In this document: in pieces, positions 3,396 through 36,505 of the stretch
Position numbering within the stretch: the first letter of the stretch is position 1
Layout: each line of letters begins with the position of its first letter
Virus record (IMG/VR): IMGVR_UViG_3300044546_001499
Span: 1 to 45,877 of that record
Reading direction: 5' to 3' (one strand)
Length of the DNA stretch: 45,877 nt
Origin: a virus
Notes under the pieces: model-generated
What the model saw: the letters and a program-made list of their open reading frames with translations, nothing else
Told to the model about the DNA's origin: nothing
The model's database searches: none
Program-made: the position numbers and the translations under genes

Positions 3396-3638
3396 ATGAA
3401 AATTCAAATTAAAGAAATTGCCGAACAATCCATAAGATTGGCATTGAATGAAAATTTGGCTGGTACAAAAACAGCAGACTTGCGAGATTTAAAATTCGCT
3501 GAACTCATTGTTGATGAATGCATTAATGAGATAACCAAGCACTATGAAAAAGAGTTCAGTAATGCAGTACTACAATGGGATCTTGGATACATTGGCGGAT
3601 TACGAACTGCAATCGATTTAATCACTATCGAGCGTTAA
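3396..3638 (+). CDS. FAELIV-family small phage protein (copy 1)
   Basis: An 80 aa member of the window's largest paralogous family. It has I.EIAEQSI at the N-terminus and LKFAELIVDECINEI in the centre, but the C-terminus differs from the usual HFGVE ending. Function unknown. Bases encoding its last residues are echoed as a non-coding remnant at about 13522-13546, upstream of another promoter cassette. Confidence 0.65.
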   Translation: MKIQIKEIAEQSIRLALNENLAGTKTADLRDLKFAELIVDECINEITKHYEKEFSNAVLQWDLGYIGGLRTAIDLITIER

Positions 3639-3640
3639 TT

Positions 3641-3670
3641 TTACTTTTATTCCGATTGTGTGTTATAATT
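3641..3670 (+). promoter_or_regulatory. Early-type promoter cassette (18 bp spacing)
   Basis: TTTACTTTTATT and GTGTTATAATTACTCTATTG, with the class A leader that ends TTAATTGGAG. Drives the gene at 3696. Confidence 0.8.
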
Positions 3671-3695
3671 ACTCTATTGTTTAATTGGAGATATT

Positions 3696-4127
3696 ATGTC
3701 AACGCATTGCTTAATAGGTGTAGTTCACGGAGAGACTATCAAGACCATTTACTGTCGTTTTGATGGTTATCCTCATGGAGTTGGAGAGATGTTGTTGGAA
3801 CACTACAACAGTGCAAAGGCAAACCATCTTATCTCTTTAGGCGATATTAGTTATCTAGAAAAAGAAATTGAACCGCCTGCCGGCGTTGAACATAGTTTTG
3901 ATAATCCAGCAGATGGTGTTACTGTTTTCTACGGTCGTGATCGGAATGAGCCTAATGCTGGATGGAATATATTCCTTCATGAACCATCGTTCAATCATTA
4001 TAGAAATTGTCTTCTTAGTAGAGGTAACGACTTTAAACACGTATATCTGATAAAGAACGATATGTGGTATTATCTTCCTTCTGGTACTAAATTATCCAAC
4101 GCGAAACTTCTCAGCGAGGTGATATAA
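3696..4127 (+). CDS. Conserved phage protein (MSTHCLIG family)
   Basis: A 143 aa protein. The opening MSTHCLIGVVHGETIKTIYC, followed by FDGYPHGVGEMLLEHY and LISLGDISYL, is a layout I recognise from many unrelated phages, always annotated as hypothetical. The class A leader gives it a good GGAG ribosome site. Its last codon overlaps the next ATG (TAATG). No catalytic motif is evident. Confidence 0.7.
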   Translation: MSTHCLIGVVHGETIKTIYCRFDGYPHGVGEMLLEHYNSAKANHLISLGDISYLEKEIEPPAGVEHSFDNPADGVTVFYGRDRNEPNAGWNIFLHEPSFNHYRNCLLSRGNDFKHVYLIKNDMWYYLPSGTKLSNAKLLSEVI

Positions 4128-8274: not shown

Positions 8275-9153
8275 ATGACGAAAAAAGTCGGAATTGTTTT
8301 GGCTGGTGGAGGCGCTAAAGGAGCGTTTCAAATAGGTGTATTAAAAGTACTGCGTCAGTATATGAAAGCTAATGATCAAGAATTGGTAGCAGTATCTGGA
8401 ACGTCAATTGGAGCATTTAATGGCGCCTTTCTAGCAAGTAATCAATTTGATTTGCTAGAACAAATGTGGATGGAATTTGATACAGACAACTGCCCGTTAA
8501 CTCGAACAGGAATGTTTGGTGTTGTAGGAACTATGCTTACAAAAGGCTATGCATATCACCCAGAACCGTTAAAGCGGTTTATAAAGAAAAACCTAAACTT
8601 TAAGAGTTTCATTGAATCAAAAATTACATACGTCAATACAAAAGTGTGTTTGACAAATGGTGAAATGGTATTAGGTGGAAATCGTGGACGGAATGCAGCC
8701 CTTGGCAAGGATATTATTTGCAAAGAAATTATGGCGAGCATGGCTGCGATTCCTTTTACTCCTTCGGTAAACATTGATGGGCATGAGTATGCAGACGGTG
8801 GTTTTAAAGATGCTGTACCAGTTGAGGCACTTATTAATGCTGTACCCAATTTGGATAAAATCTATATTATTGAGTGCAATAAACAAAAGCGTTCTTGGAA
8901 ACCTGAAATTAGTGTCAATTCGCCCCGAACACTTTTTGCTAAAATATGTTTTGTCTTTGACGAAGTGATGTGGGAAGAGTGTAATAGAAGTGACATTGAA
9001 ATTGGCAAATTAAAATATTGGGGAAATGACGATAAGTTCACACTGATATCACCGGCAAAAGTTGACCTACGCGCAACAGATTTTGATGTTGATAGCATAT
9101 CAGAGCAGTTAAATCACGGCATCAGTCTTGCTAGGAGCATTTTTACCAAATAG
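8275..9153 (+). CDS. Patatin-like phospholipase
   Basis: A 292 aa protein with all patatin hallmarks: the oxyanion-hole loop GGGAKGAFQIG (11-21), the nucleophile elbow GTSIG with Ser44, and the catalytic Asp in ADGGFKDAVPV (Asp174). Patatins hydrolyse acyl chains from phospholipids using a Ser/Asp dyad. No signal peptide or membrane segment is present, so it would act in the cytoplasm or on the inner membrane leaflet. In a phage it could alter host membranes, aid lysis, or recycle lipid. Its upstream region lacks the early cassette. Related bacterial proteins serve as CBASS effectors, but no cyclase is present here. Confidence 0.9.
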   Translation: MTKKVGIVLAGGGAKGAFQIGVLKVLRQYMKANDQELVAVSGTSIGAFNGAFLASNQFDLLEQMWMEFDTDNCPLTRTGMFGVVGTMLTKGYAYHPEPLKRFIKKNLNFKSFIESKITYVNTKVCLTNGEMVLGGNRGRNAALGKDIICKEIMASMAAIPFTPSVNIDGHEYADGGFKDAVPVEALINAVPNLDKIYIIECNKQKRSWKPEISVNSPRTLFAKICFVFDEVMWEECNRSDIEIGKLKYWGNDDKFTLISPAKVDLRATDFDVDSISEQLNHGISLARSIFTK

Positions 9154-18731: not shown

Positions 18732-19097
18732 ATGCAAAATGTGAAATCAACAAAACAGGTAATTAAAAAAGACGATACGACAGAATGGTTTTTAAATGAC
18801 GAATGGCATAGAGAAGACGGACCTGCCGTTGAGCACGACGACGGTACAAAGGAGTGGTGGCTGTTTGGTAAACTGCATAGAGTTGACGGTCCGGCTATAG
18901 AAGATCAAAATGGCGATAAGTTGTGGTATATAAACGGTAAACTGCACAGAGTTGCTGGTCCGGCTATAGAAGATTTTGATGGTTACAAAGGATGGTTTTT
19001 GAACGGAAAGCAGTACAGCAGTATTAATGAATATTGTACTGCTGCTAAAATTGTTGATGAAGATAAAACATTGTTTTTATTAAAATGGGCAAACTGA
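18732..19097 (+). CDS. MORN-like repeat protein (HR.DGPA repeats)
   Basis: A 121 aa protein built from three tandem units of about 22 residues, each with W(F/W/Y)(L/I)..GKLHR(V)DGPA.E. Copies start near residues 17, 38 and 60, and the last one ends in a partial unit. Such repeats form a beta-hairpin ribbon and occur in phages and giant viruses. Their role is unknown, though binding to a protein or membrane partner is usual for MORN-like folds. Confidence 0.7.
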   Translation: MQNVKSTKQVIKKDDTTEWFLNDEWHREDGPAVEHDDGTKEWWLFGKLHRVDGPAIEDQNGDKLWYINGKLHRVAGPAIEDFDGYKGWFLNGKQYSSINEYCTAAKIVDEDKTLFLLKWAN

Positions 19098-26488: not shown

Positions 26489-26590
26489 GAAACAACGGGT
26501 GAGAGAGTAGCGGAGAGCTCAAACTCAGGCATAGTCTGTTGGCGTCGCAGATCTGAGTATCCTTTTGCTGGTTCGAATCCAGCTTGTTTT
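26489..26590 (+). tRNA. tRNA-like element with abnormal anticodon region
   Basis: A perfect T-arm GCTGG-TTCGAAT-CCAGC (26567-26583) is followed at once by TTGTTTT, which pairs over 7 bp (one G-U) with GAAACAA at 26489. A TGAG/CTCA stem (26500-26503 with 26518-26521) can serve as D-stem with a large loop containing GG. The place of the anticodon arm is taken by a 6-bp stem ACTCAG/CTGAGT (26523-26528 with 26553-26558) around 24 nt that contain another 5-bp hairpin, and no loop has U33 in place. The 102-nt length and missing anticodon mean it may be an altered, intron-bearing or decayed tRNA. CCA is not encoded. It fills a gap between genes. Confidence 0.45.
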
Positions 26591-26644
26591 AATTTTAACT
26601 GTGTTCTAGAAATGCGATAAAACGAGTGAAGCAATAAATAAAAA

Positions 26645-27094
26645 ATGAAATTACACACCAAAATAATATTACAAACGTCTCTTGCTTTTTTTGCATTCGG
26701 CGCACTTGCTCAAACAACACCGCCGTTTGTTTCATATGTATTCCCAATAACTAGAGTGATAGATGGTGACACGGTTGAATTCACTGCAAACTTTTTGCCG
26801 GCACCAATTCCTAAAAAGTTATCACTGCGAATCTTTGGTGTTGACACTCCTGAAAAAGGTGGTTATGCTGATTGTCCTGCTGAAGCAGCGTTGGCAGTAA
26901 AAGCAACAGAATTCACTACAAAGTTTATTTCATCGGGAATAAACAGACGCATTTATCTCATGAAATGGGATATGTATGGCGGTAGAGTACTAGGTGATAT
27001 AGCAGTAAACGGTAAAACATTAAGGGCTTCGCTTATTGAAAATGGATATGCGCGTGAATACTATGGCGGAACAAAAACAAGTTGGTGCAATTGA
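26645..27094 (+). CDS. Exported staphylococcal-type nuclease (SNase family)
   Basis: A 149 aa protein with a signal peptide (LAFFAFGALAQ, cleavage near residue 22) and a complete SNase fold. VIDGDTVEF (38-46) carries the calcium-binding Asp residues, LRIFGVDTPE (61-70) holds Arg62 and Glu70, and YGGRVLGDI (111-119) holds Arg114. These are the counterparts of Arg35, Glu43 and Arg87. It would cut DNA and RNA in the periplasm or outside the cell. Possible roles are destroying incoming DNA of competing phages, degrading extracellular DNA or scavenging nucleotides. The start lies just after the tRNA-like element. Confidence 0.85.
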   Translation: MKLHTKIILQTSLAFFAFGALAQTTPPFVSYVFPITRVIDGDTVEFTANFLPAPIPKKLSLRIFGVDTPEKGGYADCPAEAALAVKATEFTTKFISSGINRRIYLMKWDMYGGRVLGDIAVNGKTLRASLIENGYAREYYGGTKTSWCN

Positions 27095-27124: not shown

Positions 27125-27445
27125 ATGAATCTATATCAACAAAATATCAGCAAAAAAGATCTCAGTCAGCAACTGCTGTTTGGACTAAAAAAGCATTTAC
27201 TACTTGGTCAAGATACCACTCTTAAAAAAGAAACTCGAATACAAAGTCTTTCTAATGTTGTTGAAGTACTAGAATATGTTGTTGGCGGTGTCAATGATCA
27301 GTTGCCAGATGAAGAAAAAGCTATTCTGGAAAGATTTTTTAAATTACTCCTGATAAAAACAACGTCGGCAATTATAAGTATTCACAGTCAACCAGAGACA
27401 TTTCAGGAAGAAATCTCGTTCATTAACGTTCTGTTGAAAATTTGA
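27125..27445 (+). CDS. FliS-like flagellin chaperone candidate
   Basis: A 106 aa all-helical protein beginning MNLYQQNISKKDLSQQLLFG. FliS proteins also start MN.YQQ, are about 120 aa and end in helices that wrap flagellin's C-terminus. Here LSNVVEVLEYVVGG, FFKLLLIKTTSAIISIHS and ISFINVLLK would be helices 2-5. Its stop codon is 3 bp before the late promoter of the flagellin gene. The resemblance is weak in detail and rests on the N-terminus, length, helical layout and position. A phage-specific unrelated protein cannot be excluded. Confidence 0.45.
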   Translation: MNLYQQNISKKDLSQQLLFGLKKHLLLGQDTTLKKETRIQSLSNVVEVLEYVVGGVNDQLPDEEKAILERFFKLLLIKTTSAIISIHSQPETFQEEISFINVLLKI

Positions 27446-27448
27446 TCT

Positions 27449-27456
27449 TATAAATA
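27449..27456 (+). promoter_or_regulatory. T4-type late promoter (TATAAATA)
   Basis: Exact match to the T4 late -10 consensus, 66 bp before flagellin, with no early cassette nearby. In T4 this element is read by gp55-containing polymerase and activated by the sliding clamp. Confidence 0.7.
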
Positions 27457-27460
27457 ATAT

Positions 27461-27518
27461 CAAGGATGTAACAATCCTTGCTGACTTTAATTAGTCGGTT
27501 CTCAATTCAAGGAGAACC
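27461..27518 (+). promoter_or_regulatory. Flagellin 5'-UTR hairpins, ribosome site sequestered
   Basis: Three stems in a row: CAAGGAT/ATCCTTG, GACT/AGTC, and GGTTCTC/GAGAACC (27497-27503 with 27512-27518). The last one holds the AAGGAG ribosome site at its loop edge, 6 bp before ATG 27522, so translation may be controlled. Confidence 0.55.
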
Positions 27519-27521
27519 ATT

Positions 27522-28343
27522 ATGTTAAGCATCAATTCAAATAGCCTCTCATCGGCAATCGCTCGTAATCTTAACGATAACGCATCAAGTCTTCAAAAAG
27601 TAGCTAATCAAATTGCCACAGGCAAAAGAATCATCACAGCTAGTGATGATCCAGCAGGCACAGGTATTCTTTCTAGCTTAAAGATCCAACAAAGTTCTTT
27701 AGGAGCAGTCAAGAAAAACCTTAATGCTGGAAACAGCCTGTTGGAAGTTTCTGATAGAGCACTTCAGACTCAACAATCCATCTTGACTCAAATGAAAGAC
27801 TTAGCTACACAGGCTAGTTCTGATTTGCTGAGTGCTGATCAGCGTTCTGCTCTGCAGAGTAGCTTTGCTGAACTTCAGGGTCAGCTGGATTCTACAGTCA
27901 ACAATGCAAAGTTGTTTGGAAAGAACTTGCTGAACAGTTCTGCTGCTGACGTGAATATTCAATCTGGAGTTAATTCCGGAGACAAATATACACTAAAGGC
28001 AGCTAAGAGCGATTCTGCTACTCTAGGTGTCGATACAGGTACAATCAACTTGTCTACATCAGCAGGAGCAGCAACAGCAATGACTGCTATCGAGACAGCT
28101 AGTAGCACTGTTGGAACTAACCAAAGTACAATCGGTACAATGATGACTGGCATCAAGAGTATTGAGGACAACGCCAAAACAATGTCCACAAGCCTTGAAT
28201 CTAGCATCAGCAAGATCGAGGATGCAGATATTGCATCACTGTCAAGTCAGTTGAGTTTGCTGCAAGGCAAACAACAGATGTTGAGTTCCTCTCTTGGAAT
28301 TACCAACCAGCTGCCACAATACTTGCTCAGTTTAATCCGCTAA
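27522..28343 (+). CDS. Phage-encoded flagellin
   Basis: A 273 aa flagellin. Residues 1-140 match the D0/D1 N-terminus: MLSINSNSLSSAIARNL, QIATGKRIITASDDPAGTGI, and LLEVSDRALQTQQSILTQMK. The C-terminus matches the other half of D0/D1: ISKIEDADIASLSSQLSLLQ, then ITNQLPQYLLSLIR, the family's closing NQLPQ.vLsLL motif. The short middle (about 145-190) replaces the D2/D3 surface domains. Both helical ends needed for filament assembly are intact and no frameshift is seen. It has a T4-type late promoter and a 3' hairpin before a FlgK-like gene. It could polymerise onto or replace host filaments, or serve as a virion part. Confidence 0.93.
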   Translation: MLSINSNSLSSAIARNLNDNASSLQKVANQIATGKRIITASDDPAGTGILSSLKIQQSSLGAVKKNLNAGNSLLEVSDRALQTQQSILTQMKDLATQASSDLLSADQRSALQSSFAELQGQLDSTVNNAKLFGKNLLNSSAADVNIQSGVNSGDKYTLKAAKSDSATLGVDTGTINLSTSAGAATAMTAIETASSTVGTNQSTIGTMMTGIKSIEDNAKTMSTSLESSISKIEDADIASLSSQLSLLQGKQQMLSSSLGITNQLPQYLLSLIR

Positions 28344-28356
28344 TGCACTAGGAGGG

Positions 28357-28382
28357 TCCGAGGGCTAATAACCCTCGGGTCT
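28357..28382 (+). terminator. Intercistronic hairpin between flagellin and FlgK-like genes
   Basis: CCGAGGG (28358-28364) pairs with CCCTCGG (28372-28378). The following T-run is weak (TCTTATT), so it may stabilise mRNA ends or lower downstream expression rather than fully terminate. The FlgK-like ATG is 8 bp later. Confidence 0.6.
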
Positions 28383-28389
28383 TATTAAG

Positions 28390-29412
28390 ATGTATCCAGT
28401 CTCAAGTAAGATTGCAGCCTCTGGCTTATTTGCTCAGCAGGACAATCTTGATAGAATAGCGAAGAATATTGCCAATAAGGACGTTGAGGGATATAAGCGT
28501 CTCAACCCTACATTTAAATCTGTTCCAAACAACGGCGGAGTTGTGTTTTCAGCTGCTGCTAATAATTATCCATGGATTGATAGAAACCTAGCGGATAAAG
28601 TCACAGATTTATCTAGATCAGTATCCATCAAAGAGAGTGTTGAATCTTTAGATAATTTGATTATGAACAACAATGTTGAGGAGGCGTACAGCGGGTTCCT
28701 TAATGCTAGTAAGAACCTTCAGTCATTTCCTGAAAGCCAGCAGTACCTACAGGAGTTTAATTCTGCTGGCGAAACCTTAAACTCAAGTATCAATCAAGCA
28801 AAAGAAGGATTCACTGATGTACAGAGAACAGTACGCAATAAGATTGACCTGAGTAAGATTGAACTGGATTCGCTCAAGAATCAATTAACTCAAATATCAA
28901 GTAAGGGCATCAATGAGACCAACTCTAATGATGTTCAGTTACTTCAACAAAGGATTGCTAGCTTGACCGGTTCTGTTGCTGGATACAATGAGTTCATCAA
29001 CAACATCTCACCGCCTTTGGTTTATAAGTTTGAGGGAATCACAAAGAAACTAAAGGATACTATCAATGAAGCAGGCGGTCAGGTCATGTTCTCCAACGAT
29101 GGTAAGTGGAACAATCAGACATCGGTCAAGACTGCAGAGATTAACAATACTGACGTGGTTCTGGACTTTAGCAATGAAATTGGCACATTAAAGACAGAAA
29201 TTGGAGCATTGTCTAACAAGTCTTTGTTGGATACAAAGTTCCAGACAAACCAGCATGCTCAGGCGGCAGCGGAGTACGACAAGGCATATGGTGTTAATCT
29301 GGAAAATGAAATTGTTGGCATGATGACTGCACAGAGAATGTACGAAGCAAATGCTAAGGTTCTTCAGACTAGTGACAATATGATAGGGTCGCTGCTGAAC
29401 GCTATCGGGTAG
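28390..29412 (+). CDS. Phage-encoded FlgK-like hook-associated protein
   Basis: A 340 aa protein. N-terminus SSKIAASGLFAQQDNLDRIA, then NIANKDVEGYKR, equals the rod/hook/HAP signature (SGL.A.Q..L....NNIAN..T.GY.R). The middle (DLSRSVSIKESVESLDNLIM, SFPESQQYLQEFNSAGETLN) matches the FlgK D1 helices. The C-terminus ENEIVGMMTAQRMYEANAKV, then LQTSDNMIGSLLNAI, is the FlgK closing helix. Bacterial FlgK is usually around 550 aa, so the outer domains are missing. HAP1 normally joins hook and filament; carrying it with flagellin suggests the phage can build a filament junction. The stop directly precedes an early promoter cassette. Confidence 0.88.
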   Translation: MYPVSSKIAASGLFAQQDNLDRIAKNIANKDVEGYKRLNPTFKSVPNNGGVVFSAAANNYPWIDRNLADKVTDLSRSVSIKESVESLDNLIMNNNVEEAYSGFLNASKNLQSFPESQQYLQEFNSAGETLNSSINQAKEGFTDVQRTVRNKIDLSKIELDSLKNQLTQISSKGINETNSNDVQLLQQRIASLTGSVAGYNEFINNISPPLVYKFEGITKKLKDTINEAGGQVMFSNDGKWNNQTSVKTAEINNTDVVLDFSNEIGTLKTEIGALSNKSLLDTKFQTNQHAQAAAEYDKAYGVNLENEIVGMMTAQRMYEANAKVLQTSDNMIGSLLNAIG

Positions 29413-29741: not shown

Positions 29742-30563
29742 ATGAACATCGAACAAGAATTAAAAACGGATGGGTGGAAATTAGGACAGTTGCCTCCTGC
29801 ATTGCGCATTTATCAAATTTGCGAAGTTTCAGTAAAGCAAAATGGGCTTTCTCTCTATCATGTGCCAGTGCATCTTCGTGATAGTAACTTGTGCGAAATT
29901 GCATGTGCTCAAAATGGGCGGGCTGTTCAGTTTGTTCCTGAACATGAGTTAAGCTCTGGATTGGTAACAAACTCTATTAAGCAAAATGGAACTGCTATAG
30001 AGTTTTTTCTAGAAGAAAGATTTGCTAAATTTCGTTCACAACAAATGTATTTTCATGCAGTAAGAAGTGTTGGTTCTGCACTGCGTTGGGTACCAAATGA
30101 ATTGAAGTCTAAAAAATTAATTGAATCAGCTCTTATAACAGACGGTAAAGCACTGTGTCATGTTCCATATATAGATCGTGAATATGAATTTTGTATGCTA
30201 GCAGTAGCAAGTTCAGGAATAGCTCTTAAATTTGTTCCTGAAAAATTAATAAATCTTTCAATGTGTGAGACAGCAATCGAAAATGACGGTCTGGCTTTAC
30301 AATATGCATTGATTGTATTCAAACAACTTCCTAATCAGCTCATTATGAATGCAATTGCTCAAAATGGATATGCACTGCGTTTCATTGAAGAAAGTAAGAG
30401 AACTCGTGAAATGTGTAATATGGCAGTTGAAAATGAACCTTATGCAATTTCTTTTGTTCCGAACAAATACAGAACTGATAAAATGCTGCGTAATGCAATC
30501 AAATCAAATCCAACAGTAGCAACTCTTATTCTCAACAATACAGAACTTGAAACAATAAAGTAA
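29742..30563 (+). CDS. DUF4116-like repeat protein
   Basis: A 273 aa protein made of about seven imperfect 30-35 residue repeats, each with a unit such as LCEIACAQNGRAVQFVPE or MCETAIENDGLALQYAL (C..A...NG.AL.FVP). This is the DUF4116 pattern known from giant viruses, phages and some bacteria, with no known biochemical role. The repeats should form an alpha solenoid suitable for protein binding. No ribosome site is visible; the start is the first ATG after a hairpin. Confidence 0.75.
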   Translation: MNIEQELKTDGWKLGQLPPALRIYQICEVSVKQNGLSLYHVPVHLRDSNLCEIACAQNGRAVQFVPEHELSSGLVTNSIKQNGTAIEFFLEERFAKFRSQQMYFHAVRSVGSALRWVPNELKSKKLIESALITDGKALCHVPYIDREYEFCMLAVASSGIALKFVPEKLINLSMCETAIENDGLALQYALIVFKQLPNQLIMNAIAQNGYALRFIEESKRTREMCNMAVENEPYAISFVPNKYRTDKMLRNAIKSNPTVATLILNNTELETIK

Positions 30564-33810: not shown

Positions 33811-34062
33811 ATGCCAACTTATACACGCCACTGTTCTGAATGTGATCATATATTTGATAAATTATTGAAAATGGCAGAGAAATCCTCTGCTGTTGTAGAG
33901 TGTCCATATTGTGGCGCAACTGCTGGAGAATGGATGGTTACATCATGTCATACTTCAACAGAAAGCAGCCGATTCATGACAACAAAAAAAGATTCCGGTT
34001 TTAACGAGGTCATTTCAAAAATTCAAGAGAGAAATCCTCGAACCGCGATTTGTGAACGTTGA
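33811..34062 (+). CDS. FmdB-like zinc-ribbon protein
   Basis: An 83 aa protein opening MPTYTRHCSECDHIFDKLLK with VECPYCGATAG 20 residues later: the two CxxC pairs and the MPTY start match the FmdB zinc-ribbon family. The C-terminus is unrelated and polar. Members are putative regulators. Confidence 0.7.
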   Translation: MPTYTRHCSECDHIFDKLLKMAEKSSAVVECPYCGATAGEWMVTSCHTSTESSRFMTTKKDSGFNEVISKIQERNPRTAICER

Positions 34063-35626: not shown

Positions 35627-36505
35627 ATGAAAACAAAACACGCCGTAGCTGCCGCTTTATTAAGCAGCCTAACAGTATTTTCAACAGCACAAACTGTTCA
35701 ACCATGGATGCACACCGATGTTGGTGCTGCTTGGAAAAGTGGATTTAAAGGACAAGGCACTACTATTACTGTAGTAGACGACTTTAAAAGTCGGTACTTA
35801 ATTCAAGGCAGACTTTCTAGTTTTGTTCAGTCTGGTCGTCATGGTCAGTGGACTGCGTTTGAGGCTAGCTTGATTGCTCCATCAGCTGCAGTTAGAGTTC
35901 AGGACTATACGTCTGGAAGAGCCATTACACTCGGTCGCGGTTTAAACGTTATCAATCTCAGCTATGGAATGATGGCAGCCAAGGGTTATTCAAACGTAGG
36001 CTGGTCTGCTCAAGAGTCATCTATTATTAACCACGCTAAAACTGGCGTTGCGATCGTATCAAAAGCTGCAGGAAATGACAGCGGCATTGCTGTTGGAGCT
36101 CCTACTCGTCAAGGTCAGCTGGATTATCTCAATCGCGATTTGATTGGTGCAAAAACTGCTATTTTTGTTGGCGCTCTTAGTTCAAACGGCACAACAACTG
36201 CTCCGGCTACTATTGCTAGTTATTCGAACGTTGCAGGCACAAATCCTGTTGTTCAGAATCAGTTCTTGGTAGTTGGGGTGGAAGCTAACAAAACAGGACT
36301 CGCAGGAACCTCGTTTGCCGCTCCAGTGATAACTGGGTATGCAGCAATATTAGGCAGCAAGTTTGCTACTGCTACACCAACTCAAATCACAAATCAATTG
36401 TTGAATACTGCTCGCAAAGACACAATTCGTGGTTACAATGTTGCTATTCACGGACGTGGCGAGGCAAGTTTAAGCAGAGCACTTGCTCCAGTATCTATTA
36501 AATAG
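35627..36505 (+). CDS. Exported subtilisin-like serine protease
   Basis: A 292 aa protein with signal peptide (VAAALLSSLTVFSTAQ). The S8 family triad is readable: Asp51 in ITVVDDF, His72 in SGRHGQWT and Ser229 in LAGTSFAAP. Asn150 in KAAGNDS is the oxyanion residue. The Asp and His motifs deviate from the common DTG and HGT forms, which is seen in divergent members. No propeptide is apparent. A phage-made protease acting in the periplasm or outside could process surface proteins, act on flagella or help lysis. Expressed with the beta-rich secreted protein upstream; terminator follows. Confidence 0.85.
   Translation: MKTKHAVAAALLSSLTVFSTAQTVQPWMHTDVGAAWKSGFKGQGTTITVVDDFKSRYLIQGRLSSFVQSGRHGQWTAFEASLIAPSAAVRVQDYTSGRAITLGRGLNVINLSYGMMAAKGYSNVGWSAQESSIINHAKTGVAIVSKAAGNDSGIAVGAPTRQGQLDYLNRDLIGAKTAIFVGALSSNGTTTAPATIASYSNVAGTNPVVQNQFLVVGVEANKTGLAGTSFAAPVITGYAAILGSKFATATPTQITNQLLNTARKDTIRGYNVAIHGRGEASLSRALAPVSIK

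Follow-up and report, generated by a model that had tools for sequence, protein, structure and literature searches.

Flagellin-remodelling prophages (FR-phi) of Enterobacter carry a TldR-FliCP pair, and once they have infected a cell, their phage flagellin takes the place of the host's in the filament (PMC13418256). These phages are temperate and siphovirus-like, and the RNA-guided TldR silences host fliC (PMC13418256). Expression of FliCP appears to be constitutive in lysogens, and the outer domains of the protein are enlarged (PMC13418256). Superinfection exclusion was tested and was not supported, in contrast to enhanced motility and reduced immune activation (PMC13418256). FliS is nowhere mentioned in that paper (PMC13418256). 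Within the open-licence literature, no further phage flagellin that has been studied functionally was found. A putative "flagellin-like protein" of the gut phage BK025033_ct6IQ4 is mentioned once without analysis (PMC10607447), and has in common with the locus described here a name in the annotation of a phage.

Here we analysed 45,877 bp of viral DNA (the window; IMG/VR virus record IMGVR_UViG_3300044546_001499, positions 1-45,877), which carries a three-gene flagellar cassette on the plus strand at 27125-29412, in the order FliS-like gene, flagellin, FlgK-like gene. The initial annotation, which knew of no well-characterised system of this kind, was nearly right: there is one relative, prophage TldR-FliCP (PMC13418256). 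Phage flagellin is already known as a kind, but apparent lifestyle and timing, partners and flagellin architecture differ here. Both systems have a phage-borne flagellin. Unlike TldR-FliCP, the window cassette has a late promoter motif, a flagellin of D0/D1 only and its own FliS-like chaperone, with a FlgK-like or FlaG-like partner across its relatives, and neither TldR nor a tyrosine integrase was found. The search for TldR gave only a sub-cut-off match of 24 zinc-ribbon positions (E 0.009, window 33820-33921), and no tyrosine integrase was detected at E<=0.1 in nine contig records, which may be incomplete. The features of the cassette are as follows.

26645..27094, +, staphylococcal-nuclease-type gene, 149 aa (PF00565 1.3e-7, phrog_452 6e-17)
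27125..27445, +, FliS-like flagellin chaperone, 106 aa, predicted four-helix bundle with an N-terminal Tyr (AF2 and Foldseek)
27449..27456, +, T4-type late promoter motif TATAAATA, the sole copy in the window, 73 bp 5' of flagellin
27461..27480, +, 5'-UTR hairpin with GUAACA loop, covarying relatives in L001, L003 and L005-L007
27497..27518, +, predicted hairpin sequestering the flagellin Shine-Dalgarno sequence, GGTTCTC / GAGAACC
27522..28343, +, phage flagellin, 273 aa, D0/D1 only (PF00669, PF00700)
28358..28378, +, predicted intergenic hairpin between flagellin and FlgK-like gene, loop CTAATAA
28390..29412, +, minimal FlgK-like (HAP1-like) hook-filament junction protein, 340 aa (PF06429, PF00460, TIGR02492, Foldseek)

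The three cassette ORFs (27125-27445, 27522-28343 and 28390-29412) are complete and uninterrupted, with no premature stop, as the initial annotation had it. Its identification of the second gene as a flagellin was confirmed by matches to Flagellin_N (PF00669, 4.8e-25, 88.7 bits) and Flagellin_C (PF00700, 5.6e-11, 43.1 bits), both above the curated cut-offs. These domains, the NQ-PQ-LLSL-R terminus and the FliS fold of the neighbouring product are shared with bacterial FliC/FliS. Flagellins of D0/D1 only are frequent in bacteria: 28 of 262-292 aa were taken from a Gammaproteobacteria sample, and the PDB also holds flagellins of 270-273 aa. The phage flagellin is therefore not a phage truncation, and the earlier statement that both structural proteins lack the outer domains has to be divided: in the flagellin this is an architecture common in bacteria, whereas the FlgK-like protein falls short of the cellular FlgKs sampled. 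The closest bacterial flagellin was at most 37% identical to the phage flagellins in a sampled, non-exhaustive set of 80 loci (a pattern scan of ~85,000 genomes plus 369 Gammaproteobacteria genomes), and these searches yielded no close bacterial flagellin from which to assign a host. The other phage flagellins were 51-74% identical to that of the window. In a maximum-likelihood tree the seven phage flagellins formed one group (support 99/92), the neighbours of which lie on long branches and are not to be trusted. An uncultured betaproteobacterium MAG (L013) carries a cluster of unusual short flagellins, three of them with an LTIFR end, with small ORFs between or behind them that lack any Pfam match; neither FlgK nor FliS was matched in the L013 genome.

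The exposed tip of D1 (residues 141-190, approximate limits set by analogy) sets the phage flagellins apart from their cellular counterparts. Between phages the tip was 56% identical, or 0.97 of the overall identity (range over 15 pairs 0.82-1.24), whereas in 341 pairs of bacterial flagellins with D0/D1 only and comparable overall divergence, the tip was 29% identical, or 0.54 of the overall value (95th percentile 0.75). Every phage pair exceeded this bacterial 95th percentile, with a p-value that is not to be taken literally because the pairs are not independent. The phage tip is thus conserved like the core, opposite to cellular flagellins. This argues against functions that reward diversification, such as a shifting decoy, and fits either an escape from bacterial diversifying pressures or a fixed binding task.

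The first gene probably encodes a FliS-like protein, as had been proposed from the sequence. Its AF2 model was confident (pLDDT 88.7), and the first eight matches in a Foldseek search of the PDB were all FliS chains, the best being 6gow_E (TM 0.77, probability 1.00, E 0.06). The E-values of the eight chains (0.06-0.55) are not significant alone, so the fold call is based on their agreement and on their probabilities (0.92-1.00). Alignment with 23 cellular FliS proteins by hhalign scored 24.0, compared to a maximum of 17.5 in 60 column shuffles, and placed the N-terminal tyrosines together. Profile comparison with one small protein of L013 was weak. At E<=1 the FliS Pfam profile matched none of the nine contigs, the FliS NCBIfam profile did not match the window's protein, and a viral scan with this single protein as query returned no match. 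An identity as FlaF was considered and found no support: no Pfam FlaF match was found in the genome search at E<=5, and the L002 protein alone scored 0.047, below the cut-off. Collectively, fold and weak profile similarity suggest a FliS-like protein that, unlike cellular FliS, falls outside the Pfam family.

The third gene had been described as a shortened FlgK, and this agrees with PF06429 (2.2e-13) and PF00460 (6.8e-6), both over cut-off, which mark a rod-type N-terminus and a Flg_bbr_C terminus as in FlgK (HAP1). The best NCBIfam model was TIGR02492 flgK_ends (4e-25), at 89 bits far under its equivalog cut-off of 170.75. The structure prediction called for at the outset likewise led to FlgK/HAP1 hook-filament-junction structures first (E ~1e-5, probability 1.00), headed by FlgK from the Salmonella hook-filament junction, from an AF2 model with a pLDDT of 64.5 overall, in which the helical middle is mostly at 80-94 and the N- and C-terminal regions are of low confidence. 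Unlike FlgK, the phage protein has no outer domain; its 340 aa compare with at least 473 aa in the sampled complete cellular FlgKs (open frames 473-1000), and one sampled 302-aa cellular frame matches the N-terminal part of the model only.

A co-occurrence search of viral contigs, also suggested initially, revealed full-length flagellin relatives in eight other contig records from seven phages: L001 (104 kb), L002 (5 kb), L003 (318 kb), L005-L007 (three related contigs out of three metagenomes) and the pair L010/L011, a single phage recovered from two metagenomes. Each of the nine records, the window included, has a FliS-like ORF immediately before flagellin. Further viral scans gave no additional full-length relatives, and among named phage records only short drafts or weak matches were found. 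The gene after flagellin varies: the window, L003 and L005-L007 have a FlgK-like gene there, L002 has a FlaG-like one (26 bits, over cut-off), L001 a weakly FlaG-like one (16.6 bits, below cut-off) and L011 neither. No credible match to the cap gene FliD was found in the contigs, which may be fragments, and no FlgL was found in them. A FliD_N match in contig G005 sits in a Gly/Ala-rich repetitive ORF and was taken as chance. Tail sheath, tail tube, portal and baseplate genes are present on the L003 contig, whereas that of L011 encodes a terminase, a protease/major-head protein and a portal of another family. The FliS-like/flagellin pair is thus shared by different phage types. The carriers are apparently lytic, and several are apparently unrelated. 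Two different flagellin-carrying phages (contigs G001 and G007) come from one metagenome (3300002026), which hints at a common host group. In L003, the stretch from the nuclease gene to the flagellin cassette also holds a type IV prepilin-like gene (3630-4037, PF07963 1.6e-8), the second subunit of a host appendage in that phage.

Among L005-L007, omega was 0-0.21 for flagellin, 0.04-0.11 for the FliS-like gene and 0.07-0.13 for the FlgK-like gene; deeper comparisons were saturated. Between the window and G001 (the L001 contig), flagellin is 67% identical, compared to a mean of 44% for their shared genes.

The T4-consensus late promoter that had been noted ahead of flagellin was substantiated by enrichment of its ATAAATA core in three phages. 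The core occurred at upstream intergenic positions in 5 of its 10 sites in the window (50%, against 13% for permuted controls, p=7e-5), 20 of 37 in G001 (54%, p=1e-21) and 42 of 83 in G003, the L003 contig (51%, p=6e-43); permuted 7-mers used as controls gave 8-13%. In contig G008 the proportion was 10%, equal to controls; enrichment is lacking in the L011 contig. Genes that follow the core in G003 include those for tail sheath, tail tube, portal and a baseplate wedge, and flagellin at a distance of 92 bp; in L001 it likewise precedes flagellin. It was not found before flagellin in L005-L007 or L011, and L002 has only CTAAATA, located before the FliS-like gene. Judged by these motifs, the cassette is apparently switched on late in infection.

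The flagellin leader also carries a hairpin that is shared with L001, L003 and L005-L007, with a common GUAAYA loop and differing stems. In an alignment of four sequences, a small number, made by hand on the shared loop, 3 of 5 pairs were altered on both sides, and 90% of cells were paired compared to 25-45% when the alignment was slid. The hairpin was not found before 200 bacterial flagellin genes and has no Rfam match. A CsrA-type reading (GGAUGU in the window) was dropped because the L005 hairpin has no GGA. L001 has an additional upstream hairpin with the loop GUAACU. Sequestration of the ribosome site similar to that predicted at 27497..27518 was seen in L001 and L005, and the intergenic hairpin has counterparts in L005 (loop CCAATAA) and L003 (loop CTAACAA).

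This arrangement suggests that the virus rebuilds host flagella before the cell bursts. We consider it probable that the cassette is a phage-encoded flagellar-filament module, made late, exported by the host flagellar secretion system and remodelling host filaments. Among the options raised at the outset, replacement of the host filament thus stays the favoured one. Late in infection, phage flagellin would be transcribed from the T4-type promoter, the motif for which is present. The FliS-like protein, to judge from its fold and linkage, would bind flagellin and hand it to the host flagellar type III export gate. The flagellin may then polymerise on host hooks beneath the host cap, and the FlgK-like protein may build a new hook-filament junction. 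Host gene expression is shut down by T4, as is usual for lytic T4-type phages, and a filament made late would therefore be mostly phage-coded; its growth would continue, with a phage-defined surface. Since neither FliD nor TldR was credibly found, the host hook, cap and export apparatus would be needed. Photosystem genes of cyanophages, such as psbA, offer a parallel in lytic phages, in that a phage could replace an in-demand host protein while host expression is off; it is an analogy only, as an extracellular organelle rather than metabolism is concerned here. The most likely benefit would be that motility of the infected cell is preserved or changed, or that the filament is masked as a receptor; the two are indistinguishable here.

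The filament-module reading is supported by the FliS-like/flagellin pair in nine records, including a phage with unrelated head genes, by a variable accessory gene that is FlgK-like or FlaG-like where recognisable, by the FliS and FlgK folds, by the late promoter and conserved leader hairpin, and by purifying selection in L005-L007, the lack of a tyrosine integrase and above-mean conservation of flagellin. Several observations count against it. With no phage FlgL or FliD, junction and cap would mix phage and host parts; three lineages lack the FlgK-like gene; L005-L007 and L011 are without ATAAATA before flagellin; and the FliS identity comes from fold and weak profile similarity, with no family match.

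The same late promoter type serves virion genes, and the cassette of L005-L007 is preceded on its own strand by a PAAR gene and a large ORF. Together with the conserved outer surface, this could point to a flagellin that is part of the virion. It would form filaments on the head or tail, to which the FlgK-like protein would be the adaptor, and could for instance make contact with host flagella. We regard this as unlikely, and export is preferred mainly because a dedicated FliS-like export chaperone is present in every cassette; moreover, two lineages have a FlaG-like gene in place of the FlgK-like one, a phage whose head genes are unrelated carries the core pair too, and the window cassette lies among small accessory ORFs, ~7 kb from the tail-fibre genes. 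No more probable is a dominant-negative or decoy role, in which the short FlgK-like protein poisons the junction and flagellin is secreted as monomers, blocking flagellum-dependent adsorption of competitors. The missing outer domain of the FlgK-like protein, its length and the lack of a detected FliD would suit such a role, but three lineages have flagellin and FliS-like genes with no FlgK-like gene, the polymerisation core of flagellin remains conserved, and the tip lacks the diversification that one would anticipate in a receptor decoy.

That the genes are captured host DNA carried as neutral cargo seems very improbable. GC3 of flagellin (0.38) and the FlgK-like gene (0.43) at window 27522-29412 does exceed that of the other sampled window genes (0.21-0.32), a rise not seen in G001, G003 or G008. 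Against neutral cargo stand the low omega among close relatives, a single phage clade with at least 50% internal identity that is old enough for saturated synonymous sites, and the phage late promoter with its conserved leader hairpin. The worry that the segment is an assembly chimera of phage and host DNA was put to rest by replicate assemblies and keeps only a negligible probability: no evidence in its favour was found, the identical cassette type occurs in eight other records, the sequence around the cassette matches at 99.7-100% between L010 and L011, which come from different metagenomes, and at ~96% among L005-L007, and the closest bacterial flagellin is just 37% identical.

A bolder reading, which we hold only tentatively and think rather doubtful, is that the filament itself serves the phage life cycle, as an organelle specified by the phage. 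Virions would be docked, trapped or repelled by its conserved outer surface, or would carry it, and a FliS-flagellin core with interchangeable junction or length-control genes would be swapped between unrelated lytic phages. If the filament-module reading is true, phage control of the host flagellum would reach from prophages to lytic phages and would comprise, in place of one protein, a small kit for assembly that includes a chaperone and a junction protein of its own. It would also mean that late investment in a secreted organelle of the host is open to a lytic phage. The cassette offers a direct test between dispersal, receptor masking and a virion role, and its conserved outer surface, the reverse of cellular flagellins, is itself in need of explanation.

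Upstream of the cassette, the nuclease-type gene that had been reported beside it was verified by its PF00565 match. Its product has a Sec-like signal peptide, judged by eye, and a relative in L003 is 37.8% identical (blastp) and lies ~4 kb 5' of the FliS-like gene; it is a neighbour whose membership in the module is uncertain. Further upstream, a degenerate tRNA-like stretch with a T-arm (26501-26591) scored 18.4 bits for Rfam tRNA, below the gathering score of 29, and ARAGORN called no tRNA there. Shortly 3' of the cassette is a DUF4116 repeat protein (29742-30563, five repeats, 5.8e-30). Elsewhere the window encodes a patatin-like phospholipase (8275-9153, PF01734 1e-25) with a GATAAATA site upstream and weak similarity to CBASS phospholipase effectors, and a phage-borne subtilase-family protease with an apparent signal peptide (35627-36505, PF00082 1.6e-10). 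Proteins with an NGK-HR-DGPA-E repeat occur in both the window (18732-19097) and L003 (10233-10772), and the window copy is 52% identical to a different G003 gene.
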